Shown: positions 10,611 to 37,100, counted from the first letter of the stretch. The stretch: 64,000 bases of DNA from Ailanthus altissimus (GCA_946807835.1 OX327690.1:17766501-17830500); one strand, 5' to 3'. Numbers and translations are program-made. Notes: generated from the letters alone by a model not told the origin.

Positions 10611-10621
10611 AAATCTTTTTC

Positions 10622-14810: not shown

Positions 14811-14859
14811 TTACTTTTGTTTGTTGATAGTCCTATTGAGTCTTAAGTATTAGACTCAT

Positions 14860-15986
14860 GAGTCTATTTTCACACCACTGCACACGTCAATATCATAGGT
14901 AATTACATTGCTAAAAATTATGAAAAGGTATATCTAACTAATGGAGAACCTTGGGATATTGTTAGTATGAGAGATATTTATGTAAAGATGTTAAATAAAT
15001 TCATATAAAAAATTCAGAAAGTAAGGCATGTTCCCAAGTTGACGCATAATCTAATTTCAGTAGGACAACTTGATGATGAAGGGTATGTGGCCTTTACTAT
15101 TAGTACTTAAAAGATCAATAAAGGATCTTTGTTAGTTGCTTAAGAAAATAAAATTAAAACTCTTTACATGACTTCTAGTTATAGGAAACATTGTTGCGGT
15201 TGCTAATGCAAATGTTAAGTCAAATTTATGGCACTTTAGACTTGTACACATAAGTGAAAAAGGGATGAAAGTGCTTTTATCAAAGGAAAAGATATCAAAT
15301 ATGAAGAATGTTGAACATAACTTTTGCGAAAGCTATATTCTTAGAATGTAAAAGAGAGTTAGCGTCTTAAAAGTTGCCATAAAATTAAAGTAAAAAAGTT
15401 ATAGTTAATTTACATTGTTGTATAAGGACCTACTTCTGTAGGATCCCTTAAAGGCTTAAGATACTATGTAACATTTATTAATGACTTAAGTAGAAAGGTA
15501 TGAGTTTATTTTTTGAAAAATAAATTTGATGTCTTCAATGTCTTTAAAAGATAGAGAATCATAATTGAGAATGAGACAAATTTAAAAGTTAAATTCTTAC
15601 AATCTGATAATGAGGGAGAATATATGTATGTTGGTTTCAAATAATATTATGTTGATAATTAGATTAAAATAGAGAAGACCAACCTATAAAATGCACAACA
15701 GAATAGTGTAACTGAAAGGATGAATAAAACTTTGAATGAATGTGCCAGGAGTATGAGATTACACTTCAACCTACCAAAGATGTTCTTAGCAAATGCAATT
15801 AACATTGTAGTATATCTAATCAATAGAGGAACTTTAACACCATTGGATTATAGAATACCAAAAAAAGTATGGAGCGGTAAGAAGGTAAATCTTTCATTTT
15901 TAAAAGTGTTTGTTGTGCTTGTTACATTCTTGATGATGTTGCTGGTAGAAATAAACTTGAACCAAAGTTTAAGAAGTGCTTCTTTA
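14860..15986 (+). pseudogene. copia protease tail and integrase remnant (5' part)
   Basis: The gag-pre-integrase domain is readable at about 15225 (LWHFRLVHISEKGMKVLLSK). The integrase core includes an SDNEGEY-like block near 15600 and ERMNKTLNECARSMRLHFNL at 15716-15770, followed by the conserved AINIVVYLINRG. Many stops. The sequence stops at the codons for KKCFF, where the solo LTR at 15987 interrupts it; the next codons (IGYSDIEFGY) are found at 19863. Confidence 0.8.
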
Positions 15987-18900
15987 TGTTGGAGCTGGTG
16001 CTTACGTGCCATTTCAATATTGTATGAATATTAATGTTTAATATTTATACAATAAATATTTCTTATAAAATCATAAATATTAAACATATATGGTATGATG
16101 CTTATAACATTTCAGACATTGTATGATTTGAAAGAATTCAGATCTAGTCTAAAGGGGTTTAGATCAGTGCTAAGAGTTAGCAGCGCTGAAAGTTATAAAT
16201 GTTAAAAGTTAACAAGTTATAAGAGTCAGCGATATCTAAGGAGTTAGAGCCTTAACTGAAATTGGACAAAAACTTGAGAATATACTAATAATGACATAGT
16301 TGCAAAGAGTTTCAATAGGTGCTAGAAAATGTCATTATGTAAATATGTTCTCAAACACTGTGCTCCAAATCTATTTTATCGATACGGGTCTCGGTGAATT
16401 CCTTTTATATAGATTAGTGTATGTCTATATCTATAGAGTACATATGATTGTTCTTAGCTGACCACGAGCTTAGAGCTCGTATAGGCATACGGGTATTCAG
16501 TAAGAACTGGGAACTGAAAGAACTCACGAACACCTCTAATAGACATGCCATGAGGTTGTCAATTGAGGGTCTTCTCGAATTTAGTAGTATTTGTGATCCT
16601 TTAACCTGAGCACTGTTGTGTATTTTATATAACACAAACTAACGCAAGTATACGTTATCGCAACAAGTAATATATGATGAGTAAAGTATCGATCCTACGA
16701 GGAATTGTTATTACTACTTGCTAAGTACTGAAATTGTGTCCTCTTACTCTTATTCAAGCTACTAGCAATTCAATGATTTTGATATTTAAATTAACTAAAT
16801 AAAAATAATAATTAAAAAAGTTGAGCAAAGAGAACAAAAGTGATAGCACCAATACTCAAATGCCTAGGATTACAATATTCCCTCAATATTTCAGTTGAAT
16901 TCAATTACTCCATTTAGAACTATCAATATGAATGTTAACCAAGAACTCTAATATCCTCACAAGTCTCTTCCGATGGTCAAGTGAGTATATCTCATTTAAT
17001 CAATTATTAATATTGCTATGATAATTAAATTAAAATAAAATTCATTAAGTTCAAATTCTCTAAATGATCATATATGCCATATGAGTATATTCCTATCTCA
17101 TGTAGAATTTATGCTTTTACACAATGATCATACATCAATCTATTTATGGCCAACACAAAATTCCATTTTCCAAGTTCATTGAGGTTTTCAAATTAATACA
17201 TTGTCATATAATTAAAAGCATTAAACATAGAACAAATTGAACAATTCAATACCAATATGATAAATAAGGGAAAATAATCAATCCAAACTACATTTTGAGT
17301 TCACATTGTAATCATAACAATAAAACTTAGTTCATAATTGAAACCATAAGTTCAGATCATCTAACAACATCATTATACATACTAGAATCAACAACAAATA
17401 CAAAATTAAAGAGAAGAGAAAATTTCCCTTAATGCAATAGTGATGTTCTTCCTCCAAAATGCAGAATTTCTTCTTGTTGATGTTGATGTTGATTCTTGCT
17501 TCCAAGATCCAAATGAAGTGTTAAGTTCGTGCTCTCTACTGCCTAGCCTCTTTTTGGCTTAATAATGGGCGTTTATATAGGTTTAGGGTTTTAAAAATAG
17601 GACAAAACTGCCCTTAAAGAGTGCCCAGCATCCAGTGTCGCGGCATTCAGATTCAATGCTTGCGCATGCCACGGCACTGGAGCTTCTGACTTGAATGCCC
17701 CAGCGCTGCACTGTTCATGTACTGTAGTAATATCACTATTTACCGTATTGTTCATTGACACTATTTATGGCACTGTTTACATTTTTTGCATTTTAGTCCC
17801 CTCTTGGATTCTCATCTCAAATAACCCCGTTTGCATCCGGTTTTCAATTTTTTTGCTTCGATAGTGTTTAAACCTATAAAACAACATTAATATGCATAAA
17901 TAGTCAAATTATTTAGATAAATTGAATAAGCATCAAGTTTAGTAGGATAAAGTATTGTATGCAATTACGCCCTATCAAGCACCACGGTGGGCTTGTGAGT
18001 GATCCACTATACTTTGATTTCACAGATGTCAAAGACCTTTTACGGTTTGATCGCTACGTGTCGTTCTGTGTGGTCTGATGTTCATAGAGTTTGGTGTGCA
18101 TAGATATGGGATCCGTCAGCTTACATGAGTGATTTATATATCCTGATACTCCGAGATTATATTTTAGAAAGTCTTATGGCAACATGTATAAACCCCGAAA
18201 AAGAGTTTTTTGTAGGGTCAAATAATATCGCCAAAGTATTTGCGTATATTGTCTATCAAAATACTTATTTGGAGATAAGTTCACGAATGCACACATGGAG
18301 ATTTGATGGTGGTAATCTATATCTCTACTCTTCCAAGATATAGGTGACAGAATGATTATATGAATATGTTATGACTTCAGCTTGTATGGTCTAATGAGCT
18401 AATTTGTAATAGCCGTGACGCGTACATGGGGCATCGACCACAGACTTATGGAATAGTTTCATTTGATGAATTGGGCTTGGAGCTAGGGAGTTCCACAATA
18501 TAAAGTGTACTTATTATACACTGGGGTAGTGTACTGGATTGAATAGTTCAATCCAGTAAATTCTAGCAAACCGAAATATTTGTTTCAAGTTCCTTCAGGA
18601 TGTACACTTGTCAAGACTTAAGAGTTAAGTATATTAATTGGTTAACAAGAGTTGTTGATCACTAGGATGATTGACAAGTGACATAATTTAGACCCTGGAT
18701 GTTTGACTTATATATGACCAAAATGACCTTGCTTGTTTGGCAAGCAAAGTCATTTAATAAAATACAAAAGTATTTTGTTTTAATTAATTGATTTCATTAG
18801 TCAAACAATTGTTATAAAACAAATGGGATAAAGAACTATTATTGGTAAAATTGCCATACTTGGTGGGGCATACAATTTGACTAAACCATTTTATATAAAT

Positions 18901-19857
18901 CAAAAGAAAAAATATTTTTCTTTTGTTAAGTGTCTCAGACATTTCATGGAAATAAAAAGACATGTGTTTTATTTTATTTTATTTAATTAAAAAAATAAAA
19001 GCATAATGCAATGGGCAAGACATGCTAAACCATACTTAGTGGGGACAATTTTGGCTTGTATTTGAAGGGCAAAATAAAACAAAGGAACAAAAATGAAAAT
19101 GTTTTATTTTTGCCACAATTTGGTTCGGCGATTGCATGTGTGAGATCAACATGTGCATAATTATTATTACACAAGAATGAATGGCTTGTAAGGGCTACGT
19201 CCTTGTAATTGATGAGAGAACAAATAAAATGAATGAATTGGATTCATTTTTTGATGGTTTTGAACTTGGCAAAAATAGAGAGGAAAAGAAAGAGAGCATT
19301 GTTTTCGTTTTCAAGTGTTGAAACAAAATAGTTCTTAATCTTCTTCATTAAGTATGGCCGACCAAGTGAGAGAAATAAAATGAAATTGTGTTCATGCAAA
19401 TTAAGGCAAGAGTTACTCAACAAATACTACTATTATATTTCTTTTGATACAAAGTAGTTAAAGTGTTTAACTACATTTTAGTTTAATAAGTTTAAACTAG
19501 GTTAAGAGTTAACCAAGGTGATTAAGAGTTAATCACTTTTATGTTTAAGAGTTAAGCATACATTGTTAAAAATTAAAGTTGCTATTTTAACGATCCAAAC
19601 CCACCCCAGTTTGGTCCTAGAATTATCGGCAAGTACACTTCATAGTGGACTTCGGTTTAGAAATTTTCAAAATTGTGCAAGGTGATTATTGATCTTTATT
19701 TTCATTAGAGTAATGAAAATTAAATTTTAAATGTGTTTGTTTCACTAGAAAATTAGATTTCTGGTTTCGCTGCTCTAATATGTATGTATGACACGCATAT
19801 TGCAATGTAATGTCCATGCTGTACATGCATGTACCCTAAAAAATTAGCACACTTTCA
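15987..19857 (+). mobile_element. Solo LTR of the hairpin family, itself interrupted
   Basis: Starts tgttggagctggtgcttacg like the LTRs at 21618 and 28719, ends accctaaaaaattagcacactttca, and is flanked by a perfect duplication CTTTA (15982-15986 and 19858-19862). Without the nested insertion (16614-17977 plus one AGCAC) it is about 2.5 kb. No primer-binding site, coding region or second LTR accompanies it. It is clearly diverged from the two young LTRs. It retains hairpins of the family, including an 11-bp perfect stem at 18533-18557. Confidence 0.92.
16614..17977 (-). mobile_element. Solo LTR (family shared with 50298-51637), minus orientation
   Basis: A TG...CA unit of 1364 bp with perfect target duplication AGCAC (16609-16613 and 17978-17982), inserted inside the solo LTR at 15987-19857. 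It is a close relative of the copy at 50298-51637 over its whole length. On the minus strand it begins TGATAGGGCGTAATTGC, has a TATATAAA box at about 17572-17579 and a GC-rich AGCGC-like block upstream of that box. This start resembles Athila/Tat-type LTRs, so I read the element as minus-strand. No coding sequence. Confidence 0.9.
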
Positions 19858-19862
19858 CTTTA

Positions 19863-20531
19863 TTGGCTATAGTGATATTGAGTTTGGTTATCATTTCTGG
19901 GATGACCAAAATAAAAAAGTTATTAGAAGCAGGAATGTTGTCTACAATGAACAACTTTTGTACAAGGATAAGTCAGGTACAAAAACTATACGAACATATC
20001 CTAAAAGTCAAGAAGTTATAAGTTGTTTAATTAGAAGACTTTCTAGCAAATAAATTGTAAAATGATGATAAAGAAGATCAAGACAATGTAGATACATAGA
20101 AAGAATCACATACCTCCGTGTTTGAATTCAGAAGATCCATTAGAACTATTAAACTACCACAGACATATTCACCTTCATTGTTCTACACCTTATTGACTGA
20201 TCCATGTGAATAAATAAAGTTATGAGGAAGCAATGCAAGTTGATGAGTCAACTAAATAGGATTAAGCCATGAGGAATAAGATGAATTTTTTTTACTATCT
20301 AATTAGATATGGAAGTTGACAGAGTTACCCAAAGAAAAGAAGACATTGTACAACAAATGGGTTTAGCAAGTCAAATATGAACATGATGACACTAAGAGAT
20401 CCCAAAAAAGACTAATTGTAAAAGACTTTTAACAAAAGGAAAGCATTGACTACACTAAGAAGTGGTGTAGATGACTATAGTTAGAATTGTACTTGATTTA
20501 TTGACAAAAGAAGACTTACATTTAGAGCAGC
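19863..20531 (+). pseudogene. copia integrase end / reverse transcriptase start, continued
   Basis: Continues the old copia polyprotein after the solo LTR: IGYSDIEFGYHFWDDQNKK then RSRNVVYNEQLLYKD. Around 20430-20531 the decayed RT start is readable (IDYTKKWCR, then DLHLEQL). Stops are frequent. The sequence breaks off at the point where the next codons would be DVKTAF, because another LTR begins at 20532. Confidence 0.8.
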
Positions 20532-21588
20532 TGATAAAGGTTCATTAAATCTAATATTCAAATCTTCTAAACTTAATATTTATTCATAGAAATTAAGATT
20601 ATTTATCTTTTGATGTATTTTATTATTATTTTTGTAGGATTGGAGTTAATAGAGCAAATAAGGTTGAAACTCTAATGAAAATAAATCAAAAACATCAAAT
20701 TGTTACAGTGAATTGCTACAATACTAGCTATAGTAACTAGATACAGTAGTCTGCTATAGTACCTAGCGCCCAGGATCCAGCGCTGCAGCGCTAGAACAGT
20801 GGCGATGAACAATAATGCTAAACAATATTTTTGCTACAGTAACTCGTGACCAGTAATCATACTTTGACTGGTATTTGATGTTTAAACTTAATTTGAAGAC
20901 AAAAACCTATAAATAGAAGGCCAAAAATCTTAATTAAGGAGGGGCGGAGAAAAAAAGAGGCAAAAACTTAGGGAAAGAGTTCACAACATAAAATCAAAGA
21001 TTGAAGCCAAAGATTGAAGAACTAAGATCAAGATTCAAGCTTCAAGTCAAGATTGAGCAAGAAGCACATCAAAGACTCACTTTGATTAGTTTTTTCTCTC
21101 TTTATTTATCATCATGTTCTTGTTCTTGTTGATCTTTATAAATTGGTTGGATACTTTTAGTTTTGTGATGGGCTAAATTATTCATCTAGGGTTAGACTAT
21201 ATGAACCTAGTATGGATTTGTATTGTGTTAATTTTTAGTTTATGAACTTGATACATTCATTTTATTAAACCTGATCAATATTTTTAATGATTGAGAAACC
21301 ATGGTAAACTCGACAGAGGGATTCATGTGTTTAGTCTAGGATAGTTTAATGCATGATCATAGGGTACACAACTATGAGTTCCATCTAAGATAGACATATA
21401 CCTAGGTAGAATGTATGGTATAATTTAGACTCAATCTTAATGAATTACATTCTGATTTGAGTACCATAAACATACAGGTGATTGTTAGAATGCGTAATAT
21501 ATTCAATATAGATAAAGCAAAGCCACTAAGTACTCATTTGACTGCTTACCTTAAACTATCCAAGTAGTAATAACCATTGATTGAGCAT
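20532..21588 (+). repeat. LTR of an Athila/Tat-like family, 3'-truncated
   Basis: Starts tgataaaggttcatt inside the copia RT, with a TATAAATA box at 20908-20915 and an AGCGC-rich block at about 20761-20815. Its middle resembles the LTRs at 54497 and 59883 (ctagggtta, gcatgat, cctaatcttaatgaa-type blocks). The final ~300 bases expected by comparison are missing. The nested LTR at 21589 sits here with its own target duplication, and copia sequence resumes near 32850, so a deletion removed this LTR's end plus some copia RT. Confidence 0.7.
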
Positions 21589-21617
21589 TGATAAGTGCAT
21601 TTTATATATGATATTAT

Positions 21618-23803
21618 TGTTGGAGCTGGTGCTTACGTGCCATTCCAATATTGTATGAATATTAATTGTTAATATTTATACAATAAACATTTCGAATAAA
21701 GATTGTTAATATCATATTAATATGGTATAATGCTTGTAACATTACAGACATTGTTTGATCTGAAAGAGTTCAGATCTGGTCTAAAGGAGTTTAGATCAGA
21801 ACTAATAGTTAGCAAAGCTGAGAGTTATAAATGCTAAAAGTTAGCACTGTTAAGAGTTAGCAGGTTATAAGAGTCAGCGAAGTCTAAAGAGTTAGAACCT
21901 TGTCTATAATGGGACAAAGACCTGAGAGTATACTTGTAATGATATAGTTGCAAAGAGTTGCAATAGGTGTTAAGAAATATCATTATGTAAGTATGTCTCA
22001 AAGATAATGTTCCTGATCTATAATCACCAATGCGGGTCTATCGGTGATTCACTTTATATAGATTAGTGTATGTCTATATCTGACTGGTTCAGATAGTTGT
22101 TCTTAGCTGACCATGAGCTTAGAGCTTGTATAGGCATGCGGGTATCCAGTCAGGACTGGATACTGAACAGACTTATGAGGACCCCAATAGATATCCTATG
22201 ACACCGTCAAAGGAAGGTCCTCTCGAGTTGAGTAGTATTCGTGGTCCTTTGACCTGAGCGCCACGGTGGTCTTGTGAGTGATCCATCATGCTTTGGTTCC
22301 ACATATGTCAGAGACCTTTCATGGTCTGACCGCTATGTGTCGCTGGGTATGGTCCGATGCTCATGGAGTCCGGTGTGCGTAGATACGGGATCCGTCAGCT
22401 TACGTAGGTAAGTTGTATATCCGATGCTCCGAGATTGTATTTCATAAAGTCTTGTGGCCACAAGCATAAACCCGGGAAAAGAGTTTCCCATAGGGTTAAA
22501 CAATATAGCAAAAGTGTTTGCGTATATTGTTTATCGAGATACGAATCTGGAGATAAGTTTATGGATGAGCAAATGGGGATTTGACGGTGCTGATCTATAT
22601 CCCCGCACATCTAGGATATAAATGATGGAAGGATTATACGTATACGTTATGACCTCAACTTGTATGGTCTGACACACTGATTTGTAATATTCGTAACGTG
22701 TGCGTGGGGCATCGATTACGGATTAATGGAACAGTTCCATTTGACAAATCGGGTGTAGACCTAGAGAGTCCCAATATGAAATGTACTCTTTGAGCACTTG
22801 GGCAGTGTACCGTATTGAATTGTTCAATACAGTATAATTCAGCAATTACTAAGGTTACGTTAACTAAAGTAAGTGGTTAAATTGGTGGGACCCACTTTAG
22901 ATTAACTTGGTAACCGAGTAAGGATATAATAGTAATTTCACTTTATGATTATTTAATTGTTAAATAATTAAAATAAATATTTATTTATTTAATTGTTAAA
23001 TAAATTAATTTAACATAACTAAGGTTAAAAGTTAACCAAGTGGTTAAGTTAAGTTAACCTTACTTAAAGGTTAAGTAAAGGTTAACCTAACCATGGTTAA
23101 GTTAGTTAACTATGGTTAAATTAATTAAATATTTATTAACTTAAAGGTTAAGTTAAAATAATCTAACTAAGGTTAAATGTTAACTAAGGTTAGGTTAAGC
23201 CAAATGAAATGCAAATGAAATTCAAATTAGTTTGGAATTAATTCATTTGTATATAAAGTGAAATGAAATTGAAAATGGATATTGATTTAGTTTTTTAGGT
23301 TTTGCATTTTGGGAGCCAATTCAATTTGAGAAATTGAAATTGTTTGTTTTGTGTTTTAAGTGTTAGAACAACAAAACAAATTGAATTAATGGTTACTAAA
23401 TGTAATAACTAAAAACAAGATTTGTTTTATTTATTCAAGAGTTGAATAAAAGGAAAAACAAATATAATTAAGTTAAATGGTTTAACTTTGAAAAATGTTT
23501 AAGAGTTAAACACATATGCTGGATTAAGATGCTGCCATTCTAGACAATCAAACCCACCCTTGTTGATTGCTAGAATTGATCAAAGATTCATTTCATGGTG
23601 GACTTCAAAGAAAATTAATCCAAAGGCTTCATTGGTGATATTTCTCAATCTCGAATTTCAGATTAATCAAATGTTATTTTCTGTGTTCATTATATGTAAT
23701 CTTCCGCTGTGCACATGTATGTATGAGATATGTATATTGTTTGTATGATGAACACAACCCACATGCAAGAACCCTAAGTAAATTCGCCCCATATAACCCA
23801 ACA
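21618..23803 (+). repeat. Left LTR of the young element
   Basis: tgttggagctgg...aacccaaca. It is nearly identical to 28719-30907. It contains perfect hairpins such as GTATCCAGTC/GACTGGATAC (22142-22163), GGGAAA/TTTCCC, a two-part stem CAATATA+GCAAA (22501-22529), AATGGAA/TTCCATT and GTATTGAA/TTCAATAC (22812-22830), and a GGTTAA-box cluster. Short open frames in it (22395-22610 minus, 23560-23748 plus) are also in the right LTR and look like chance. Confidence 0.93.
23020..23205. repeat. GGTTAA-box cluster in the LTR (second copy at about 30120-30305)
   Basis: At least nine GGTTAA and three TTAACC hexamers occur in under 200 bases. GGTTAA is the core of plant GT-1-type binding elements, so this may be a promoter or enhancer array. 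It may also be simple-sequence drift. Confidence 0.55.
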
Positions 23804-23805
23804 AT

Positions 23806-23817
23806 TGGTATCAGAGC
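23806..23817 (+). other. Primer-binding site (initiator tRNA-Met)
   Basis: tggtatcagagc, two bases after the left LTR end, is a perfect match to the usual plant copia primer-binding site. Confidence 0.95.
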
Positions 23818-23937
23818 AATTTGTGTTGTTATGGGTGATTTTTTAGTGTTAGCTAAGTGTTGGCTAAGTTGTAGGACAAGTTCCGGGGCTGTTGGGGTGC
23901 ATTTTAAGTGTTAAAAATGCAAACCAGTGAAAAACAG

Positions 23938-24265
23938 CACCTGGAACGCTGCAGCGCTAAGGTCCAGCGCGGCAGCGTTCATATGAACGCGGGAGCGCTG
24001 ATCGTATGACGCCCCAGCGCTGAATTACCGCGGGGGCGCGGATTGTTTGGCGCCCCAGCGCTGGACAAGGGCGAGGGCGCTGGTTTTCTGGCGCCCCAGC
24101 GCGGGAAGCACTGCTTCCAGCGCCCCAGCGCTGGTAAGACAGCGCCGCAGCGCTGAGGCTTGTGAAGCCCTAGCGCGGCAGCGCTATGAGACAGCGCCGC
24201 AGCGCTGAGGCTTATGAAGCCCTAGCGCGGCAGCGTTACAAGACCAGCGCCGCAGCGTTCTTACA

Positions 24266-24266
<1 letters not shown>
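23938..24266 (+). repeat. GC-rich AGCGC minisatellite in the leader of the young element
   Basis: About twenty degenerate copies of a unit like cagcgcygcagcgctg, alternating with gcgccccagcgctg forms, in an otherwise AT-rich element. The last third contains two near-identical ~50-base units (cagcgccgcagcgctgaggc...). It lies between the primer-binding site and a long A run. Every unit is rich in CG and CAG/CTG sites, so it could be a dense target for CG and CHG methylation. Confidence 0.9.

Positions 24267-24268
<2 letters not shown>

Positions 24269-24299
<31 letters not shown>
24269..24299 (+). repeat. Homopolymer A run (~31 bases)
   Basis: An uninterrupted A run directly after the GC minisatellite. 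It could be a retained poly(A) tail from an internal template switch or a slippage product. Confidence 0.9.
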
Positions 24300-24302
<3 letters not shown>

Positions 24303-24599
24303 TAAAATCTTTTTATTTTTCCGCATGTGGGGGTTTATGAGATGTAATGATAAGGGTTATTAGTTTACATGATAAACCAAGAAAATAATATTTTTATTAT
24401 TTTATTTATTTTTGTAACCACAATGGGGGCCCCACTGGTGGGGGTTAGTTGTGCTTGTGCAAAAATGAATAATTGATTGAGAATAACCTCTCATGTGATG
24501 AGCGCAAATAATATGAAAGCCTGTAATTAAAATCTCTCTTAATTAGATTGAAATTTATTATATTATGTGATAATATTTTAAATGGTCCGTCTTGTCAAT

Positions 24600-24945
24600 A
24601 CGGTGTGAGATGGGTCACTATGGTCTTTCCCAATATTGCTTTAGCGTGAGGGATTTGGTCGGTGTGACTTGGTCTAATGCCGGTAAAACATAAGATGAAT
24701 CAAATATATGCGAACATATTATCCAATATTGCTTTAGCGTGAGGATAGTGTTAGTAACATATATTTGAGCATTGATGAGTTAATCTGAAATACAGTTACC
24801 CAATATTGCTTTAGCGTGAGGGTAATGTGTATTTAGGATCAGTAGTAAGAGTTGTATGAGATACAATTGACAAGAGTTGTCTACCTGTTGGATTTATAAA
24901 GGCCAATATTGCTTTAGCGTGAGGCTGGAGTAAAACCCCAATGGG
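24600..24945 (+). other. Four-copy hairpin array with an invariant 18-nt loop and differing stems
   Basis: aatattgctttagcgtga occurs identically at 24632-24649, 24725-24742, 24802-24819 and 24905-24922. Each copy is closed by a different but pairing stem: TCCC/GGGA, TATCC/GGATA, TTACCC/GGGTAA, GGCC/GGCT (one wobble). Outer stems also differ and pair: GTCAC/GTGAC (24614, 24664), AAATATATG/CATATATTT (24702, 24758), AAATACA/TGTATTT (24788, 24828), TTGG+TTTA with TAAA+CCAA (24888, 24931). The loop holds the self-complementary hexamer AATATT, suited to loop-loop contact. The position after the primer-binding site suggests a packaging or dimerisation role; that is inference. Confidence 0.85.
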
Positions 24946-25031
24946 ATCCACTTCCCGCTGTATAGTTTAAAATATTATACTATCTTATCCCGTTTGAGAG
25001 ATTAAAGGGATTAAGTAAAGCAGTGGGAGGG

Positions 25032-25209
25032 CGTTTTTTAGATTAAAAAATGTATAACAGTTATACCCATGATCTAAAACGTAATTTATTAACGATAAAG
25101 AAATGTTCTGCTACGCATCTCCTATTTTGTCTTATAGAGATAAGATGATTATCTTATAGAGATAAGATACTTGTCTTATAGAGATAAGATTGTCTTATAG
25201 AGATAAGAT
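25032..25209 (+). other. Long hairpin plus four tandem TCTTAT-AGAG-ATAAGA hairpins
   Basis: 25032-25081 is a nested hairpin: CGTTTTttAGAT pairs with ATCTAAAACG, enclosing GTATAAC-a-GTTATAC (25052-25066). From 25130 to 25209 the unit tcttatagagataaga occurs four times in about 80 bases; each unit is a perfect 6-bp inverted repeat with the loop AGAG. Confidence 0.85.
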
Positions 25210-28200
25210 GAGTACGAGCAATCCGTTACTAATCTTGAACAAATACCAATAACTATAGGGTACTGAATAAAATATGTAAGGCTTGCTTATGAATCTAAGA
25301 ATAGTTCTAGATTCAATAATATTTGATATTACTAAACCACATATAGAGAAAAGTCATAATGGAAAGTGTTTCCACTGTTATAAGGTTTGAAATAGTAAAT
25401 GTTACTATTCATCGTACCTTGACTTAAGAAAGATTGACTCATTAGATATCTGTTTGACCAAACATTAACATTTCATTAGCATTTGATGTTAACTCTGCAA
25501 GGGTATGAGATACTGCTTGTTATTATCATATCTGCAAGATGTTGCATGATTTGAGAAATGCTTGATTACTAAAAAATGAGAAGTTCAGCTTCACGTAGGT
25601 AATAGAGATTTCCTGAACGTGGTAGCCGTTAAGACTTCACAGTTACTTCTTATTTCTAGTAACAGCATTAATGTTGTATAATTGCTATTTTGAGCCAAAC
25701 ATTATTAGGTAAATCATATCACTCCCTGTAGCTGACAGAGAGGGTTATCACAAAAATAAGGAAATAGTTCCTTGTGATAATGATACTGATTTACTAATTG
25801 AATGTCAGTTAATGAATGGCCGTTATATCTTATATACAACAGGAAATGTTATAAGTGTAGAGGTGAACAGAATATATAGTATTTCAGCAACTTAAATAAT
25901 AATGAATAGTGGTATATATAAGATTAGGTCATGTAGTCGTGAGACGACTATCCTAACTGGTTAAGGATGGTCAGATATTTGATCTGACTATAATACATTG
26001 ACTAGTTTATGAATTATGAATTCAAAAGAATATGACCGAATCTTTATGTAGGTGTAAGACGCCAAGCCACTGGTTTATTAGATCTGGTACATATAGATGT
26101 ATTTAGTCCAATAAATCTTACTGTTATAAATGATTTCGATACTTCATTGTCTTTATAGTGAGTGTCACTATATAGACATGTGTTTCTAGGAAATGCAGGT
26201 TAGAATAATTTCGAAGTGTTCAAAATGTTCTGACAATGAAAGTAAAGAAACAAACCCTTATGTATATTGAGTGCTTGCGATTAGATCGAAGTAGTTTATA
26301 CATAATCAGTAAATTCATAAATTATTTAAAGAGAATATGATTCTCTCTCAGCATAGTCCTCCAGATACTCCTCAACATAAAAATGTTTAGGAAATGAGGA
26401 ATCAGACTATATTAGATACAGTCTGATTGATATTGAGAATTGCTGACCTTCTAAAAAATATCTATGAGGTTATATTTTAACATCTGCTACTCACTTATTA
26501 AATAATTCCATAATCGTTCCTACTACTTTATATGAGATATATACTAAATAGGAAACGAGTCTTAAGTATGTTAAGACTTGGTGTTATTCTGTTTTCATAA
26601 GAGTTATGCAACAGAATAAACTTGTATCTAACGGTACAAGTATCGGTTCATTTAGTATCTCAAGTGGATAATGGGATAACAATTCTATAATTCAGATGAA
26701 CGAAATATGTTCGTTTCTCAAAATGTCACATTCTTAGAGAAAGAGTCAATCTAAATATAGATGAACCAACGATGGAATTTTATTTTCAAATGAGTGAAAT
26801 ACCTTTAACACACTAAGTTCATAGGTCCAAAAGGATATCAAGGCCATCATTTAGGTATGTTTGATACTTGAAGGTGCCCTTGGTGTTTTCTTAGTCGAAG
26901 AAAAAGATCCTTTAACTTATGGAGAGACGATGTTTGACATCGATTCGGGAAAATAAAAAGATATCATAAAATTTGAAATTGACTCAACACATGACAATTA
27001 AGTCTAGGACTTAGTTGAGCTTCCTGTAGAAATTGTTTCTATCAACAGTAAATCAGTTTACGTAGCGGAAGCAGTATGGGCCTTATCTGAAGGAATAGTC
27101 CTTCAAGGCCTGATAGATGTTAAAAGGTTACACTCAGAGATCTAGGATCAATAATGAGGAAACCTTTTTCATCAGTAACCATGCTAAAGTCAATTTAGAT
27201 TTTATTGATGACAAGATACCATAAAATTCGAATTTGACTCTAAGTATGACAATTAAGTCTAGGACTTAGTTGAGCTTCCTGTAGAAATTGTTTCTATCAG
27301 CAGTAAATCAGTTTACGCAGCGGAAGCAGTGTGGGCCCTATCTGAAGGAATGGTCCTTCATGGCCTGACTAATGTTGAAAGGTTACACTCAGAGATCTAG
27401 GATCAATAATGAGGAAACCTTTTTCATCAGTAACCATACTAAAGTCAATTTGGATTATGTTGGCTATTGCTGCATATTATGATAATGAGGACTGGCTTAT
27501 AAATGTAAATAAGGTGTTCTGGGAAGTATATCTCCAACAAGAGATATGCAGAGAACAACTTGATGTTTTTGCATCCAAGCCTAACTTCTAGTATAATGTG
27601 CAAACTGAGGAAGTCCATTTATGGACTTAAGTAGATTTTTCCAAAGGTGGAATCTTTGTTTATATGATGAAATCAGAAAATCTGGTTTTATCAGGAATAA
27701 AGAGGAAGCGTGTGTGTTCAGAAAGGGCAGTGGGAGTATAATTATCTTTTTAGTTCTCTAAAGTGGAAAGTATATACTCAATATTGGAAACGATGATTGG
27801 AGTATAGCAAGTAAATCAGATAAGTGTTATCTGTGTAAAGAACTTCTTCATAAAAGATTTGAGAGAGACTTCCTATATACTAGGTATAAAGCTTTATGGA
27901 GATATAGCTAGGAAGCTAATAAGACTCTCTCAAACTTCGTATATAGAATAAGTCCACGAAAAGGTACAACTTCATTGACTGTAAGACAGTTAAAGTCCCT
28001 TTTAGAAGTGGCATTCATCTTTCTTAGAGGAAGTGTCCTCGGGAAGAAGATGAGAGAGTTAGAGTGTCTAACATCTCAGATGCATTAGCTAGAAATAGAT
28101 TAATGCATACCGTCTAATGTACGAAATCTAAATCTAGATCATGACCATTAAATGGTTGTGAAACATATCAATATATACTTGAGAAGTATATAAGATAAGT

Positions 28201-28707
28201 TTATAAAATATGAAGAAAGTTTCTTACAAAAGAAGGGATACACATTCAGACTTACGTCTGAACTGAATGGTAGAAAGTCTACATCTAGTTATGTGTTTCT
28301 CTTTATCAGTACCGGAGCTAGTTAAATGTGTGTTAGTAAATGTCCACAGGTAATTCTGCCTTGGAGGTAGAATATGTTGCGGCTTGAGAAGTCAGCAAAG
28401 AAAGTACAATGGATATTCAAAATTAATTGCAGAGCTTTGAATAGTTCCAAGCTCAGTGGATCCTATCCCACTATATTGCAAAATAACGGTAATTGCTCGA
28501 GCCGAGAAGCCATAAGGCACACCAGTATTCTAATCATGTGAACTCTGAAAATCACATAATTAGAAAGTTCTTGGCAGCAAGAGTTGTAATAAAATCTAGG
28601 GAATAATCCTTGGATGTAGCGAACCCCCCTAAGCCTAAACTCCTATAGTGTTTGAGAAACACGTGGAGTGTATTGGTATGAGATACCAGTACGTATGGCA
28701 CTGAAGC
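25210..28707 (+). pseudogene. Ruined copia polyprotein rebuilt as a chain of hairpins
   Basis: Copia motifs survive in shifting frames: an integrase end near 26330-26430 (ILSQHSPPDTPQH), an RT block at 27409-27591 (LAIAAYYDNEDWLINVNKVF) and an RNase H region near 28260-28560. Stops and frameshifts are everywhere. Superimposed are perfect hairpins every few tens of bases, for example TTATCAC+AAGGAA (25745-25780), TAGTCGT (25934), GTCAGAT (25970), TGTCT+TATAGTGA (26148-26178), AGAGAAT (26330), AATCAGACT (26400), AGTCTTAA (26558), TTATTCTGTT (26584), ACTTGTA (26620), AAGTCCA (27611), CAGATAA (27817), CATCTTTCTT+GAGGA (28016), ATGCATTA (28080), TATATACTT (28172), TTCAGAC (28245), GTGTTT (28648). 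No protein is expected from it. Confidence 0.85.
26958..27455 (+). repeat. Tandem duplication of ~255 bp inside the young element
   Basis: The block starting aagatatcataaaatttga at 26958 recurs at 27213 with scattered differences. Both copies keep the hairpin GGCC..TGAAGGA / TCCTTCA..GGCC, although its loop and flanks have changed (27079-27110 and the equivalent in copy two). Confidence 0.88.
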
Positions 28708-28718
28708 AAGTGGGAGTT
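28708..28718 (+). other. Polypurine tract of the young element
   Basis: aagtgggagtt lies directly before the right LTR start (tgttggagctgg), the usual copia plus-strand primer position. Confidence 0.8.
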
Positions 28719-30907
28719 TGTTGGAGCTGGTGCTCACGTGCCATTCCAATATTGTATGAATATTAATTGTTAATATTTATACAATAAACATTTCGAATAA
28801 AGATTGTTAATATCATATTAATATGGTATAATGCTTGTAACATTACAGACATTGTTTGATCTGAAAGAGTTCAGATCTGGTCTAAAGGAGTTTAGATCAG
28901 AACTAATAGTTAGCAAAGCTGAGAGTTATAAATGCTAAAAGTTAGCACTGTTAAGAGTTAGCAGGTTATAAGAGTCAGCGAAGTCTAAAGAGTTAGAACC
29001 TTGTCTATAATGGGACAAAGACCTGAGAGTATACTTGTAATGATATAGTTGCAAAGAGTTGCAATAGGTGTTAAGAAATATCATTATGTAAGTATGTCTC
29101 AAAGATAATGTTCCTGATCTATAATCACCAATGCGGGTCTATCGGTGATTCACTTTATATAGATTAGTGTATGTCTATATCTGACTGGTTCAGATAGTTG
29201 TTCTTAGCTGACCATGAGCTTAGAGCTTGTATAGGCATGCGGGTATCCAGTCAGGACTGGATACTGAACAGACTTATGAGGACCCCAATAGATATCCTAT
29301 GACACCGTCAAAGGAAGGTCCTCTCGAGTTGAGTAGTATTCGTGGTCCTTTGACCTGAGCGCCACGGTGGTCTTGTGAGTGATCCATCATGCTTTGGTTC
29401 CACATATGTCAGAGACCTTTCATGGTCTGACCGCTATGTGTCGCTGGGTATGGTCCGATGCTCATGGAGTCCGGTGTGCGTAGATACGGGATCCGTCAGC
29501 TTACGTAGGTAAGTTGTATATCCGATGCTCCGAGATTGTATTTCATAAAGTCTTGTGGCCACAAGCATAAACCCGGGAAAAGAGTTTCCCATAGGGTTAA
29601 ACAATATAGCAAAAGTGTTTGCGTATATTGTTTATCGAGATACGAATCTGGAGATAAGTTTATGGATGAGCAAATGGGGATTTGACGGTGCTGATCTATA
29701 TCCCCGCACATCTAGGATATAAATGATGGAAGGATTATACGTATACGTTATGACCTCAACTTGTATGGTCTGACACACTGATTTGTAATATTCGTAACGT
29801 GTGCGTGGGGCATCGATTACGGATTAATGGAACAGTTCCATTTGACAAATCGGGTGTAGACCTAGAGAGTCCCAATATGAAATGTACTCTTTGAGCACTT
29901 GGGCAGTGTACCGTATTGAATTGTTCAATACAGTATAATTCAGCAATTACTAAGGTTACGTTAACTAAAGTAAGTGGTTAAATTGGTGGGACCCACTTTA
30001 GATTAACTTGGTAACCGAGTAAGGATATAATAGTAATTTCACTTTATGATTATTTAATTGTTAAATAATTAAAATAAATATTTATTTATTTAATTGTTAA
30101 ATAAATTAATTTAACATAACTAAGGTTAAAAGTTAACCAAGTGGTTAAGTTAAGTTAACCTTACTTAAAGGTTAAGTAAAGGTTAACCTAACCATGGTTA
30201 AGTTAGTTAACTATGGTTAAATTAATTAAATATTTATTAACTTAAAGGTTAAGTTAAAATAATCTAACTAAGGTTAAATGTTAACTAAGGTTAGGTTAAG
30301 CCAAATGAAATGCAAATGAAATTCAAATTAGTTTGGAATTAATTCATTTGTATATAAAGTGAAATGAAATTGAAAATGGATATTGATTTAGTTTTTTAGG
30401 TTTTGCATTTTGGGAGCCAATTCAATTTGAGAAATTGAAATTGTTTGTTTTGTGTTTTAAGTGTTAGAACAACAAAACAAATTGAATTAATGGTTACTAA
30501 ATGTAATAACTAAAAACAAGATTTGTTTTATTTATTCAAGAGTTGAATAAAAGGAAAAACAAATATAATTAAGTTAAATGGTTTAACTTTGAAAAATGTT
30601 TAAGAGTTAAACACATATGCTGGATTAAGATGCTGCCATTCTAGACAATCAAACCCACCCTTGTTGATTGCTAGAATTGATCAAAGATTCATTTCATGGT
30701 GGACTTCAAAGAAAATTAATCCAAAGGCTTCATTGGTGATATTTCTCAATCTCGAATTTCAGATTAATCAAATGTTATTTTCTGTGTTCATTGTACATAA
30801 TCTTCCGCTGTGCACATGTATGTATGAGATATGTATATTGTTTGTATGATGAACACAAACCCACATGCAAGAACCCTAGTAAATTCGCCCAACCATATAA
30901 CCCAACA
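28719..30907 (+). repeat. Right LTR of the young element
   Basis: Almost identical to 21618-23803. Differences noted by eye: one near the start (gctcacg for gcttacg), a cluster near 30793 (gtacata for atatgta) and small indels at the 3' end. Followed by the target duplication ATTAT. Confidence 0.93.
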
Positions 30908-32849
30908 ATTATATCCCTCTTAATTTGATAATTACTAATTTTAAATGTGAATTTATGGATTTTTATATATATTAATTTTATTTTGTAGGTTTCAAGTTAA
31001 TAGAGTTATTTGGAATGAAAATTCAAAGAAAACAAGCCAAAGACCAAAAATGCTACAGTGTAATGAATAGTATCAGGTGAACAATGTCGAATGTACAGTG
31101 CCACTACAGTGATAGAAATAGTGTTTGGCGCTTTAGTGCCAAATCACCCAGGATTTGGCACCTTAGCATCGGAAAGTGGTGCCCAGGTGCCATCACCTGT
31201 TTTAACCCCCTTTTTCTTGCCCTAATTTGAAACTTATAAATACTACCCTTTAGCCATTTTTCACACAATCAAAGGGAGGCACGAAATTTACAAAAGAGAA
31301 CAAGGCTTGAGCTCAAATTTGAAGAGAAGAAATGATGTCTCCAAGGTTTTTTGAGCATTATTGAAGATATTTGAAGGATTGAAACCTTGGGGACATCCCA
31401 AAATTCGATTTTTTCTTTCTTTACTTTGTATTTTCTCTTTTGTTTAAATTTCCAACTTTGAATAATGTTTGTATCTATGAATTTCTTGATAATTTTAGTT
31501 ATGGTTGGATTTTTTATGTGATTAAACTTGATTCTAAAGCTTGATGTAGTTTTATTTATATTATGTTTCGATGATTTAGTGTATTTTCGCTGAATTCATT
31601 TATGTTTCTTTATGCTTAATGCTTCCAATTGATTGGAAAATAAATTGGTTGTTGTGGATTTATAGATTGATGCTTGGGAAAGCTTGACCCATTTATTGAA
31701 TTTGGGAGAAACATAGCCTTAGGTTGTTATTGAGTTGGGAGGCTACTAATACTTTGGTAATCACCATGGTTTTCTTAAGGATTGCATGTGGTGCACTCCA
31801 AGTGTTTGATAAAATGTGTGAGAACACTTTGGGTGTGCCATTATACTTAAGATTTTATTTGATGCTCGGGAGAGGTAATAAAATTAATCCTTAGGTAATC
31901 AATTTAAGGGTTGCGTAATGCATGTATATGTAAACATGTTAGATAGGGATGTCAACTTGAATATGTATGCATAGTATCTCATTCGGCACTCGGGAGAGGG
32001 AATGAGATTAGTCTTAAGCCCTTGATTAATGAATTGAACGAAATGCTAGATATGAAGAATAGAATGAAATCAATGCTTTAGGATCCCATTTTTATAGAAT
32101 TCACCATATCGCAAGATTATCATTTTGTTGTTAGATTAAATGTTCTATAACTTGATGGAACTCTATTGAGCAATATGTGTTGATGCTATTTTATGATTAA
32201 TGACTATTTGATGTTTATTTATTTATGCTTTTTATGTGCTTAATGCTTTTAATTGCATTGGGAAATAGATTGGATGATTTAAACATTTGGGTTATGTGAT
32301 TAGGAAAGTTTAATTCATATGTTGGTTGTAAAAAGCATAGCTTTGAGTTTGTTAAGTTGGAAGATTAATGAACTTAGGGTAGTTGCGTAAGGGTAGCTTA
32401 ATGCGTGTATGTATAACGAGTTAGATAGGGATATCAACTTAGTTATATATGCATAGTATCTCATTCGACACTCAGGAGAGGGAATGAGATTAATCATACA
32501 CCCTGGACTAATGAATACATAGAGTTGGTTGTTGATCACTAATGACAAAAACTATAGGAACAATAAAAGGAAACCAAGTCCCTAGAACCCCATTGCCATA
32601 GATCTCTCATGTCTTTAATTTACCAAGTTATTTAGTTTTAAGTTACTTTTAATTCATTAATTCATCTTACCTTTTAGATTAGCCTAGATAAAGTTAGGTT
32701 GCCAATATCATAGTACTTAGCATTAATTTAGGACACAATCTTCGAGAGAACGATACTTACTCATCACTTTATTACTTGCTCACAACCCATGCACTTGCGG
32801 TACAAATTCGCGTGTGTATAATTTCGCAAACAAGCATGGGCGACTACAG

Positions 32850-33536
32850 ATAGCCATGGTACCATATGCCTCTGCTATTAGTGGTCTTATGTATGCTATG
32901 GTGAGCATAATATGAAACATAGAACATGCAGTAAGAGTTATGAGTACATATATGAGTAATCCAAAAAAGCAACACTAGAAAGCTATGAAGTAGATTTTCA
33001 AGTATCTAAAAGAAACTACTAACTTAGTCTTGTGCTTTAGAAAATCAAACTTGGGTTGCAAGGTTATGTTAATGTTAACATTTCTGGTGAAATAAATGGT
33101 TAAAAAAGTACTACTAGTCATATTTTTATATTAGATGGTGCAACAATTTTTTGAGTTTCAAAGTTGTAAAAAATTATTGCCCTTTCAACTATAGAAGTAG
33201 AATATATTGCAATGTTGAAAGCTAGTAAAGAGATGATATAGTTAAGACCTTTATGGAGGAATTGGGTAAAAAGCATGAAAATAATATGTTACATTGTGAT
33301 AGTCATAATACTATTAACTTATCAAAAAAAATTTCATAAGATCAATTTTGTAAGAAGGAGTTTTAACACTTAAGAAGATTCAGAAAAATAAAAATCTAGC
33401 CAATATGCTAATAAATACCGTCATAATAAAAAAATTGAAGTGGTTTACAGCTTCGCTTTAGCTTCTCTCTTAAGGATAAAGGACTAGTTGTTGTAGAGAA
33501 TCTAATTAAAGATAAATTAGTCTTTAAATGAGAGAT
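32850..33536 (+). pseudogene. copia reverse transcriptase end and RNase H, continued
   Basis: The old copia polyprotein resumes with MVPYASAISGLMYAMV, the standard end of the copia RT. It then runs through a decayed RNase H region (for example VEYIAMLKASKEMI at about 33200) to an aaatgagaga polypurine tract at about 33525 and the right LTR. About 170 RT codons, including the catalytic YVDD region, are missing between 20531 and here. Several stops. Confidence 0.8.
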
Positions 33537-34127: not shown

Positions 34128-37100
34128 TACTGAATATGCACAAAAGTACATAGAAATTAATCTTACGACTATTTGCTGAAATAACTTTATAAATTCCTTA
34201 ATTTGACTTTTTTCCCCATTTTTTAGAAAGTATCAAGTAAATTTTTGGTATAATTCGGACTTATAATTTCACCAACAACCCTTTAAAAATTCTGAATTTT
34301 CGTTCCAAAATCAACTCAAAAAACCATGTGTGCTAAACTTCTATAACTCATAACAAATTTAGAATATAAAATTTGAGCCTAAATTATGGGGACTATATTT
34401 ATTGAGACGGTGTTTACCTTAAGGGCTCTTTGGGTCGTGTTGAACCTTCTAGTGAATTAGGCTTGGAGCAGAATTTTTAAGAAGGAACATGAGTCCCTTA
34501 GTTATTCATATTGACTTATCAATGCTAGAAATTTTATTAGTAGTTTTCAGTTTTTAGGCTTTCATCTTCGAGTTATTGGGTATCATATGAGAATTTGGAT
34601 AGTATTAGTCCTTGATATTAATTGAGTAAGAGTTCTTGGGGTTTTCATATTGTCACTCGCCTAATTATTACCCTCGATCTTAAAGGCCCATTTGTAAATG
34701 TTTTTTCATTGTTCGGGTTTATTGTTTTCACTTTTTCAGGTGATTTTGCATGCTTCCTTTCAATCATTTTAAACCTTGTATTTTTACATTTTGACATATC
34801 TTTTTGGTTACCTCGAATCTTGTATTTGTGATATGTTGTATGGTGGTTAGTCTTATGGTGACCAAGCCTCTAACCCTTATCTTCTTAAGCTAGTTCTGCT
34901 GTTAATTTGTTTAAAATTGAGTGGTTAATTAAAATATCTTGGTTTTTTAGTTGTTCGAGGATTTCTTCTGGTGGTTTCTTACGGGCTATTGACCTAAGCA
35001 ATTTTGAACTCTGAAGGACTTTTAAAATTTTATAGCTTCAAATTGTTTGACCCTTATGGGCTTATTGTCATGAGTCATTTCATATCTTGAAAGACTTTCA
35101 TGGTAAGTTGTTGGGATCCTTAGCATTTGTAGGGGTAGCTTTATTGCCTTAAACCTTTTCCTCCTGGTTTTAGATGAACTTGAGATTATTAGCATTCAAG
35201 GGTGGTTTCTTGGTTTTGTGACTATTACTCGCTCGCCTTCTCAATCTTAAAAGGACTCGAGATATATGGCATTTGTAAGGATTTGTTGGTTTTAACCATT
35301 TCTCGCTTTCCTTTCCGACCTTGAGAGGACCCGGGTTGTTTGTAAAGATTCCATTCATACCCTAATTGAGCTCAAGTTGTTTCTAGAGATTCTTTCCCTG
35401 CCATGGGAGGGCTTAGTATTTATGTTGATGTAGAAACTTTCCTTACCCTAGATGGGCTCAAGATTCATGTTAATGTAGAAATTTTCTCTACCTTGAACGA
35501 GCTCAGAATTTTATGAGCTATTGCCCTTTGTTTTGCTTTTTAGGTTGGGTGGAGGTCTAGAGCATATGATTAGAATAAAAAGAGAAACATATATATAATA
35601 TTTATAGTGAACATAAAGGGCTTACGTAGTAACCTTTGGAATGATTTGAGTGGTCGCCCTTGGTGAGGGCTTACGTGATCGACCCCAATGAGGATGTAAG
35701 TACTAGAATTCAGCAAGAGCTTAGGTGCTCAACCTTAGGGATGGCTTCTATGCTCAACCTCGGTGAGACAAATTAATGCACATTAATGGTATTGGCATTG
35801 GCATTGACAACAACATATGCAAAAATAATAAATGATTAATGTAATGTTGAAACAACAAAGCAATCACTTTAATTCATTGTATAAAGAAATTTTTTGGTTT
35901 GTATAAGATGCACTTAATTCTTAAAATAAAACATAAACTTTGCAGTAGATTCCCAAGGTTGTTGTGAGCATCAAAGAAGGTTAAGTAACATGCATGAAAT
36001 GCTCGGATCTCATTCCCCTTGCTCTTAATAACAATGAAAATTCTTTATCTTCTTTACAAATGCCATGAACTTTCTCTAATTCTCAGGTTGGACTAAATTC
36101 AAGTTCATAAGAGAAATTGTTAAAAGATGCAATTTTAGTAACAATCTCAACAACTTGAATGAGTTAACTTAATAGGATGGTCTAGTTGATTTGAGTCTTT
36201 GAGTCGGTTTTGGGGATAGGGTCTTATGTGACCTTGGGTCCTCAGTTCTTGGCCTTCGACCCCTTCCTCAATTTTGTAAAAGGCCATATGAATTATATAT
36301 ACTAAAAGGGTCTATATGCAAAAGTTTTAAAATAATCTTAGTTAGAACCATATTTATAAAAAATAAGTGGGGCTCAATAAAAAATGCCAAATATGATTCT
36401 TTGAAAATTATGAAATTTTTTTTTAGGGACTTATTTTATAAATTATTAAAATTATGTTGGCCTAAATAAAATTTTCAAAAATTAAGAGGGGCCTAACTGA
36501 TAAAAGCTTAGTGAACCCCTAATTCAGCTCCCTTTTCCCTTACGCCGTGTATCTTTTTTTTTTTCTTTTACCCATATTCCAACCATTGTCAGCCACCACG
36601 AGGGGACTGTTAATTGGAGATGATCTTTAGCTTTTTACTCATCCTTTAAACCACCGCCGGCCACCACGAAGGGATTGCCGGCTGGTGATGATTTTAGTCG
36701 ATTATCGTTGGCTGCCATGTGCTTTCGTTTGATGGCTAGTGCTATTACCTTAGCTTTAGCAAGTTTCAAAATCTGATTGGAGCGATGGCGAGCAGAATAG
36801 CAGAAGGCGTTAACGATGGTTACGCTAGCAGCGAGGGCTGTTGGTGGCCGAGAATGATGGCTTCAAGGGGCGGCCGCATATGCGGGTTTGGATCCATTTT
36901 TGGTTATTCTAGCAGTGATCGTCAATGGTAATGGCAGCGATCGCTCAACCGATTCTTAAAAGAGTCGGTGGTGACTGAAGTATGTGGCTCAATTAAATTA
37001 AATTGGCTGAACTCTTTTAAATCTTACATTTTTATTCATAATCTCCCCGGTGCGTGAAAAAAATATATGTTATATATAATCCCTTTTAAAAAAAAAAGGA

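Follow-up and report, generated by a model that had tools for sequence, protein, structure and literature searches.

A strand-specific array of short hairpins with G-ending loops in a recently inserted, non-coding LTR retrotransposon of Ailanthus altissimus

Results

In silico analysis of a 64,000-nt stretch of Ailanthus altissimus DNA (GCA_946807835.1 OX327690.1:17766501-17830500; hereafter the window, from whose start all coordinates are counted) revealed that a complete long terminal repeat (LTR) retrotransposon at 21618-30907, non-coding and recently inserted, carries a large excess of short hairpins, and that this excess comprises a single class, namely hairpins whose loop ends in G on the + strand (G-loop hairpins), a restriction missed by the first-pass annotation of the window. 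The same class is present in a second LTR family, represented in the window by a related solo LTR (REL). Our favoured, if tentative, explanation is that we are dealing with a non-autonomous, Copia-derived element of the large retrotransposon derivative (LARD) type, in which the G-loop hairpins of the sense RNA are read by a protein, the likeliest being the CCHC zinc knuckle of a helper's Gag.

Counting perfect stems of at least 7 bp with loops of 3-5 nt, we found 53 hairpins over 21618-30907 vs. 4.0 ± 1.8 in 30 shuffles that preserved dinucleotides within 250-bp blocks; one LTR accounts for 17 vs. 0.9 and the interior for 19 vs. 1.8 (for the LTR hairpin-vs.-shuffle counts, as well as the triloop, stem-length and local-folding runs below, the 5' LTR was taken as 21618-23806). 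The claim of the first-pass annotation that hairpin density in the element lies far above chance thus stands: all 17 hairpins that it named were found in place, each of the 19 arms checked has its mate, and its estimate of one or two chance hairpins per 5 kb is about right, with 4.0 per 9.3 kb in the shuffles. It had also noted longer loops in a few cases, which we found at 26400 (11 nt), 26584 (16 nt, with a nested stem), 26620 (8 nt) and 28080 (13 nt), with loops of more than 5 nt under the outer stems at 25745 and 26148 as well. Its description of a near-continuous chain is overstated, as the 59 G-loop hairpins in 7.1 kb have a median centre spacing of 80 nt and a maximum of 473 nt. As for its statement that the rest of the window shows no such excess, all 12 of the sixteen 4-kb windows lying outside the element and REL (12001-16000 includes the first 14 bp of REL) were at chance for this hairpin class, with |z| up to 1.1, but REL itself carries G-loop hairpins too. 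Some outside windows departed from chance for other classes: 12001-16000 for 7-bp stems with 3-8 nt loops (z 3.7), 36001-40000 and 40001-44000 for 9-bp stems with 3-12 nt loops (z 4.5 and 7.0), and 8001-12000 for 8-bp stems (z 2.0).

The restriction to one class emerged when hairpins were split by the last base of the loop and compared with 200 local shuffles for the LTR, interior and REL, and with 40 for the flanks. G-ending loops numbered 19 vs. 1.39 in the LTR, 40 vs. 2.88 in the interior and 18 vs. 1.54 in REL, with maxima among the 200 shuffles of 5, 9 and 8, respectively, whereas loops ending in A, T or C stayed near chance (8 vs. 5.7, 14 vs. 10.2 and 7 vs. 6.4, within about 1.4 standard deviations). 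The flanks, in which the first-pass annotation noted other retroelements, were at chance for both loop classes, with 13 vs. 9.3 G-ending loops on the left and 11 vs. 15.4 on the right; in density, 59 G-loop hairpins in 7,101 bp (one LTR plus interior) compare with 24 in 49,076 bp of flanks. In a tally of non-redundant stems of at least 6 bp with loops of 3-6 nt in LTR and interior (n=64), 38 had 3-nt loops and 35 of these 38 triloops ended in G on the + strand, where G makes up 20% of the sequence; among flank hairpins with loops of 3-6 nt, the G-ending fraction was 8 of 57 on the right and 8 of 36 on the left.

The loops of the 59 catalogued hairpins (19 in the 5' LTR, 40 in the interior; Table 1) are 3-5 nt long, usually 3, with mostly A or U before the final G: GAG is commonest (11), followed by UUG (9), GUG (8), AGAG and AUG (5 each), AAG (4), UAG (3) and some less frequent loops. 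In 53 of the 59 hairpins, A or T precedes the final G, vs. 71% expected (p = 0.0005, in a test chosen after the loops had been seen). Left arms are distinct in 55 of the 59, so that no single hairpin has simply been multiplied, and no regular spacing was seen along the element (coefficient of variation of the gaps, 0.90). Under NNG triloops, the distribution of exact stem lengths shows a second mode (6 bp in the interior, 8 bp in the LTR), whereas under other triloops, in element and flanks, it declines steadily; REL, though, does have a few long stems with other loops. AT-richer stems show a weak tendency toward greater length (rho -0.24, p 0.03, n=77), as expected under a stability threshold, with values by set of -0.57 in the LTR, -0.26 in the interior (p 0.10) and a reversed +0.28 in REL. 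In local folding, 39 of the 59 are predicted to form with a mean pair probability above 0.5, vs. 4 of 24 look-alikes outside the element reaching 0.5, and the loop G is predicted to be unpaired at 0.82 vs. 0.31 for all G in the element.

A loop code confined to one strand appears to point to recognition of loop guanosines in RNA, and it argues against a generic perfecting of palindromes as well as against RNA structure in general. The alternatives offered by the first-pass annotation were RNA structure under selection and the perfecting of palindromes by a mutational process; the generic forms of both fail because no clear excess is seen for loops with a last base other than G, and what fits best is a form of selection specific for loop and strand. 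Selection for folded RNA as such, with the loop G as a by-product, would be in keeping with a mean folding z of -2 in 120-nt tiles (-2.0 in the element on both strands, vs. 0.15 to -0.94 in 4-kb windows not touching it and only -0.64 and -0.94 in REL, insert included), and LARDs and terminal-repeat retrotransposons in miniature (TRIMs) are described as specifying conserved RNA structures (PMC7215508). We consider it improbable and strongly disfavoured, since, if the loop G were a by-product, the remaining loops should not all be near chance. An artefact of AT-rich or tandem-repeat sequence could appeal to the AT-rich part of the LTR, with its TTAA-type repeats, but is very improbable indeed, as counts are at chance in local dinucleotide shuffles and in neighbours whose G+C is lower or similar, and the interior by itself has 40 vs. 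2.9 with stems mostly distinct. Generic palindromes and a composition artefact were ruled out as candidates by the local shuffles together with the split on the last loop base. A weak palindrome preference at insertion sites, described in PMC6911290, plays no part in this argument.

REL is 78-80% identical to the young LTR over the first 1.2 kb; beyond this, the two cannot be reliably aligned except for short islands, and their 3' parts align at 50% identity, too diverged for analysis of covariation. REL has 18 G-loop hairpins in 2505 bp, 8 of them where it can be aligned and 10 where it cannot; the 3' part of the young LTR (961 bp) also holds 10. The property has persisted although much of the sequence bearing it has changed, and it must accordingly be maintained or regenerated. 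An insert in REL of 1366 bp, unmatched in the LTR, has no G-loop hairpins and serves as an internal control, and the left flank as a whole, including the element hosting REL (presumably a degenerate copia-like element, about 14000-15986 and from 19858 onward), shows no G-loop hairpin excess. In the mismatch, folding-z, triloop and stem-length counts, REL was taken to 19992-19995 rather than 19857, with the insert included for mismatch and folding z. A hairpin of a different class occupies orthologous positions in the two LTR families (23544-23575 and 19590-19615); its C-rich loop (AACCCACCC) is conserved, and its stems, complementary in each family, differ.

The element itself has two direct LTRs with TG..CA ends, flanked on each side by ATTAT as 5-bp target-site duplication (TSD), a primer-binding site (PBS; TGGTATCAGAGC at 23806, which we take to be of the initiator-tRNA-Met type) and a purine-rich stretch up to 28718. 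Over about 2.19 kb, 4 substitutions and 3 indels separate the two LTRs, and the insertion is accordingly judged recent from the sequence. These differences are clustered: the first ~2.07 kb has 1 substitution only, and the last ~112 bp (23692-23803 vs. 30793-30907) holds 3 substitutions in 5 nt and the 3 indels, a cluster near the U5 end that suggests recombination between templates or one complex event. No open reading frame of 80 residues overlaps 19000-33000, and each sense frame of the interior has 112-143 stops; with near-identical LTRs, most of these stops must be older than the insertion. Young LTRs around a stop-ridden interior argue that the element probably moved with proteins made elsewhere, i.e., was mobilized in trans. 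An interior without coding capacity, long and yet recently inserted, places it among LARDs as far as the sequence features go.

A putative Copia origin of the interior is indicated by similarity of 27379-27588 to RVT_2, the Copia reverse transcriptase, together with motifs such as KSIYGLK that we take to be Copia. This piece is 42-46% identical to two proteins carrying PF07727, P0004 and P0005, with pairwise E of 3e-11 and 5e-11 and weak database E of 0.06 and 0.22. A Pfam scan of 10 of the 72 open interior pieces (at least 20 residues) gave no Copia family and two weak unrelated matches; in tblastn of other window pieces against the interior, the best E was 1e-4, in a reverse frame, with nothing meaningful among the matches listed. 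P0001-P0003 are identical to the window piece and come with no source, and were not counted as copies. Rfam at gathering scores gave no match over 15900-31000, and two patterns for related DNA gave 0 matches in viral contigs, among which records of the window's own genome may have been left out.

Table 1. Features of the element and of REL. "Hairpin" denotes a G-loop hairpin, given by its left arm and loop.
Feature	Left arm	Loop	Position	Strand	Remark
TSD, left copy			21613..21617		ATTAT
5' LTR			21618..23803	+	TGTTGG...CCAACA; 19 G-loop hairpins
PBS			23806..23817	+	TGGTATCAGAGC
Interior			23804..28718	+	putatively Copia-derived; no ORF of 80 aa; 112-143 stops per sense frame; 40 G-loop hairpins
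Tandem duplication, 255 bp			26958..27462	+	91.6% identity over 250 bp; 21 differences, all outside stems
Open piece with RVT_2 similarity			27379..27588	+	Copia reverse transcriptase; 42-46% to P0004/P0005
Purine-rich stretch (polypurine tract)			28700..28718	+	adjoins 3' LTR
3' LTR			28719..30907	+	same hairpins as 5' LTR at offset about +7101
TSD, right copy			30908..30912		ATTAT
REL			15987..19857	+	TSD CTTTA; 18 G-loop hairpins outside insert
Insert in REL			16612..17977		1366 bp; unmatched in LTR; 0 G-loop hairpins
Hairpin	AATATTAA	ttg	21658..21676	+
Hairpin	GATCTGAA	agag	21757..21776	+
Hairpin	TCTAAA	ggag	21780..21795	+
Hairpin	TGCTAA	aag	21832..21846	+
Hairpin	TTGCAA	agag	21948..21963	+
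Hairpin	GTATCCAGT	cagg	22142..22163	+
Hairpin	GGGAAA	agag	22474..22489	+
Hairpin	AATGGAA	cag	22725..22741	+
Hairpin	GTATTGAA	ttg	22812..22830	+	two-sided change vs. REL
Hairpin	ATTATTTAA	ttg	22948..22968	+
Hairpin	ATTTATTTAA	ttg	22983..23005	+
Hairpin	GGTTAA	aag	23023..23037	+
Hairpin	TTACTTAA	agg	23060..23078	+
Hairpin	TTAACTTAA	agg	23136..23156	+
Hairpin	GTTAA	atg	23172..23184	+
Hairpin	TTCAATTT	gag	23320..23338	+
Hairpin	TTTATTCAA	gag	23430..23450	+
Hairpin	AAGTTAAA	tgg	23470..23488	+
Hairpin	TGTTTAA	gag	23496..23512	+
Hairpin	TTTTAA	gtg	23902..23916	+
Hairpin	GGCTT	gtg	24157..24169	+	in tandem array
Hairpin	GGCTT	atg	24209..24221	+	in tandem array
Hairpin	CTCAT	gtg	24490..24502	+
Hairpin	ATATTAT	gtg	24560..24576	+
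Hairpin	TTGTAT	gag	24852..24866	+
Hairpin	GACAA	gag	24869..24881	+
Hairpin	GTATAA	cag	25052..25066	+
Hairpin	TCTTAT	agag	25130..25145	+	in tandem array
Hairpin	TATCTTAT	agag	25150..25169	+	in tandem array
Hairpin	ATAAGA	ttg	25184..25198	+	in tandem array
Hairpin	TAATAT	ttg	25317..25331	+
Hairpin	TGGAAA	gtg	25360..25374	+	over open piece reading GKCFHC
Hairpin	AATAGTAA	atg	25391..25409	+
Hairpin	AAGGAA	atag	25758..25773	+	inside longer bulged stem 25745-25780
Hairpin	TAGTCGT	gag	25934..25950	+
Hairpin	GTCAGAT	atttg	25970..25988	+
Hairpin	TGAATT	atg	26010..26024	+
Hairpin	TATAGTGA	gtg	26154..26172	+	within longer stem 26148-26178
Hairpin	AGAGAAT	atg	26330..26346	+
Hairpin	TATAT	gag	26529..26541	+
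Hairpin	AGTCTTAA	gtatg	26558..26578	+
Hairpin	CATAA	gag	26596..26608	+	apex of stem 26584-26619
Hairpin	AACGAA	atatg	26699..26715	+
Hairpin	TTTTCTT	agtcg	26886..26904	+
Hairpin	CGATGT	ttg	26928..26942	+
Hairpin	TAAGTC	tag	26999..27013	+
Hairpin	TAGAAA	ttg	27027..27041	+
Hairpin	TGAAGGA	atag	27088..27105	+
Hairpin	TAAGTC	tag	27254..27268	+	duplicate copy
Hairpin	TAGAAA	ttg	27282..27296	+	duplicate copy
Hairpin	TGAAGGA	atgg	27343..27360	+	duplicate copy; loop changed, last G kept
Hairpin	CAGATAA	gtg	27817..27833	+
Hairpin	TATAC	tag	27876..27888	+
Hairpin	ACTGT	aag	27978..27990	+
Hairpin	GTTAGA	gtg	28058..28072	+
Hairpin	TATATACTT	gag	28172..28192	+
Hairpin	GTAGA	aag	28270..28282	+
Hairpin	GTGTTT	gag	28648..28662	+
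Hairpin	TGGTAT	gag	28674..28688	+

The window has several other sequence features. All 8 occurrences of the GC-rich word CCCCAGCGC are on the + strand, none of them reversed, in otherwise AT-rich sequence, with 4 sites in an array after the PBS (24012-24131), 1 in the REL insert (17698) and 3 near 60036-60179. Within 24630-24924, CCAATATTGCTTTAGCGTGAGG is found four times at uneven spacing (24630, 24723, 24800 and 24903), and 25127-25211 is a tandem array of TCTTAT-agag-ATAAGA hairpins. Outside the element, an open frame of 385 residues at 831-1988 presumably represents an auxin response factor exon, which it resembles.

Discussion

The mechanism that we envisage is that the element moves with the proteins of another element, and that about 59 short hairpins are dispersed along its sense RNA (one LTR plus interior). 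Their stems are nearly all different, and each hairpin would show an unpaired G to an RNA-binding protein whose contacts are with the loop rather than the stem. The likeliest reader would be the CCHC zinc knuckle of the helper's Gag, and the array would then comprise many weak packaging or assembly sites, by which the RNA of the parasite may compete for particles of the helper. Being non-coding, such a parasite depends on Gag from the helper, and a large number of weak sites would be of use in this competition. In the GGAG and GGUG loops of HIV-1 (human immunodeficiency virus type 1), the zinc knuckles of the nucleocapsid bind two guanosines, one of which is the last base of the loop (PMC7599994), and a zinc-knuckle region is part of the nucleocapsid domain predicted for Gag of the Arabidopsis element EVD (PMC12252137). 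In the element described here, the GAG and GUG loops look like the HIV-1 tetraloops minus their first base. EVD is a Copia element. We further surmise, as a possible but doubtful extension, that dead coding sequence has been remodelled into a distributed, loop-coded array of Gag sites, making the element a satellite-like parasite that wins packaging by ligand number.

Whether selection has shaped the array can be weighed against a mutational process in which the growing strand folds back during reverse transcription, copies 6-10 of its own bases before switching back to the template, with a preference for template sites of the form A/T-N-W-G-T/A and no selection involved. In keeping with such copying, the stems are mostly perfect Watson-Crick and of limited length, several run on imperfectly past the perfect part (25745-25780, 26148-26178 and 26584-26619), and the LTR pair has 3 substitutions within 5 nt (23692-23696), as one complex or fold-back event could give. 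A number of observations weigh against our favoured explanation, and the first two of these, on covariation and on mismatches, are also in keeping with such copying. Covariation between the LTR and REL, for which this one diverged relative was compared over its alignable part, is weak: among 83 stem pairs of 12 LTR hairpins, 58 were unchanged, 4 changed on both sides, 6 were G-T, 9 broken and 6 gapped, with 3 of the 4 two-sided changes sitting in hairpins otherwise broken, and among 66 pairs of 9 REL hairpins the corresponding numbers were 56 unchanged, 1 two-sided, 4 G-T and 5 broken. Of the two-sided changes, the clearest concerns the hairpin at 22812, whose counterpart in REL has a stem of 12 bp. 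Moreover, GT and AC mismatches in near-perfect stems did not differ significantly, with 23 vs. 13 overall (p 0.13) and 11 vs. 5 in NNG hairpins (p 0.21), some hairpins being counted in two registers in these tallies; the weakness of the GT surplus speaks against selection at the RNA level because such selection should tolerate G-U. On the same side are the weakness of single hairpins (mean -2.9 to -3.7 kcal/mol), the lack of independence of those in tandem arrays near 21766-21895, 24136-24257 and 25127-25211, and a folding z that is equal on + and - strands and weak in REL.

Pointing toward selection are the loop rule, the strand specificity, the stem-length mode, the weak tendency of AT-rich stems to be longer and the distribution of the 21 differences between the 255-bp tandem copies, none of which falls on any of the 38 stem positions (p 0.051). 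A fold-back process would be expected to tolerate a variety of loops, yet those ending in A, T or C are near chance; the flanks are at chance for the hairpin class, and the REL insert is devoid of G-loop hairpins. To our knowledge, the preferred loops are not among the unusually stable DNA triloops, which we also count against this process. Quasipalindrome or template-switch mutation resembles what we observe, in that it turns imperfect into perfect short hairpins, but we know of no demand in such mutation for a G-ending loop on one strand. We therefore consider fold-back copying unlikely and give better odds to selection for a loop-reading partner, because the copying process would have to be specific for the G at the loop end.

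We also compared the stems with their surroundings. REL-defined stems differ less between the two families (9.3% vs. 21.5%, p 0.001), LTR-defined stems hardly differ from their surroundings (16.2% vs. 20.9%, p 0.19), and stems present in both families differ least (2/50 vs. 247/1174). Stem conservation vs. REL was not counted as a sign of selection, as choosing intact stems biases the comparison.

If the loops are read by a protein, the partner might come from the host rather than from Gag, for instance a zinc-knuckle or LIN28-like cold-shock protein, with a role in export, stability or escape from silencing. The sequence evidence would be the same as for Gag, with the partner alone being different, and nothing separates the two; in searches of papers, no host partner with such a loop preference was found, and we regard this version as a little less probable even than fold-back copying.

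Among known systems, the closest to our element in architecture are LARDs such as Sukkula, LTR elements with a long non-coding interior that are assumed to be mobilized in trans and for which, as a group, conserved RNA structure has been claimed (PMC7215508). Unlike these, our element keeps a degenerate Copia reverse transcriptase, and structurally it is a series of short hairpins obeying a single loop rule, an arrangement of which we found no report for LARDs among the best matches listed from the open-access literature. Single-stranded RNA viruses (MS2 and others) likewise have many dispersed stem-loops that share a short recognition motif, and dispersed packaging signals have been proposed to aid competition in small RNA viruses (PMC6281560). 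The element resembles such an array, as judged from sequence, in having many stem-loops that share a loop motif beyond chance; in contrast to those viruses, which encode the coat protein that reads the loops, it encodes nothing recognizably intact. SL2 and SL3 of HIV-1 present guanosines to CCHC knuckles in GGUG and GGAG loops (PMC7599994), as GAG, UUG, GUG and AGAG loops may do here, but they are few hairpins in the 5' leader vs. about 59 along the element, where binding is presumptive.

Among the best matches listed in the open-access literature, we found no report of a loop-coded hairpin array or of a strand-specific, G-ending loop, and, as far as these searches show, such a code would be the first in an LTR retrotransposon. 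A loop code that can be read from sequence alone would reveal the packaging signal of plant non-autonomous retrotransposons; elements with a common helper could then be predicted, and binding could be tested directly. Should a loop-specific copying error be the cause instead, this would represent a new mutational signature of a reverse transcriptase. Under either cause, the strand-specific, G-ending loop is a sharp and testable regularity.

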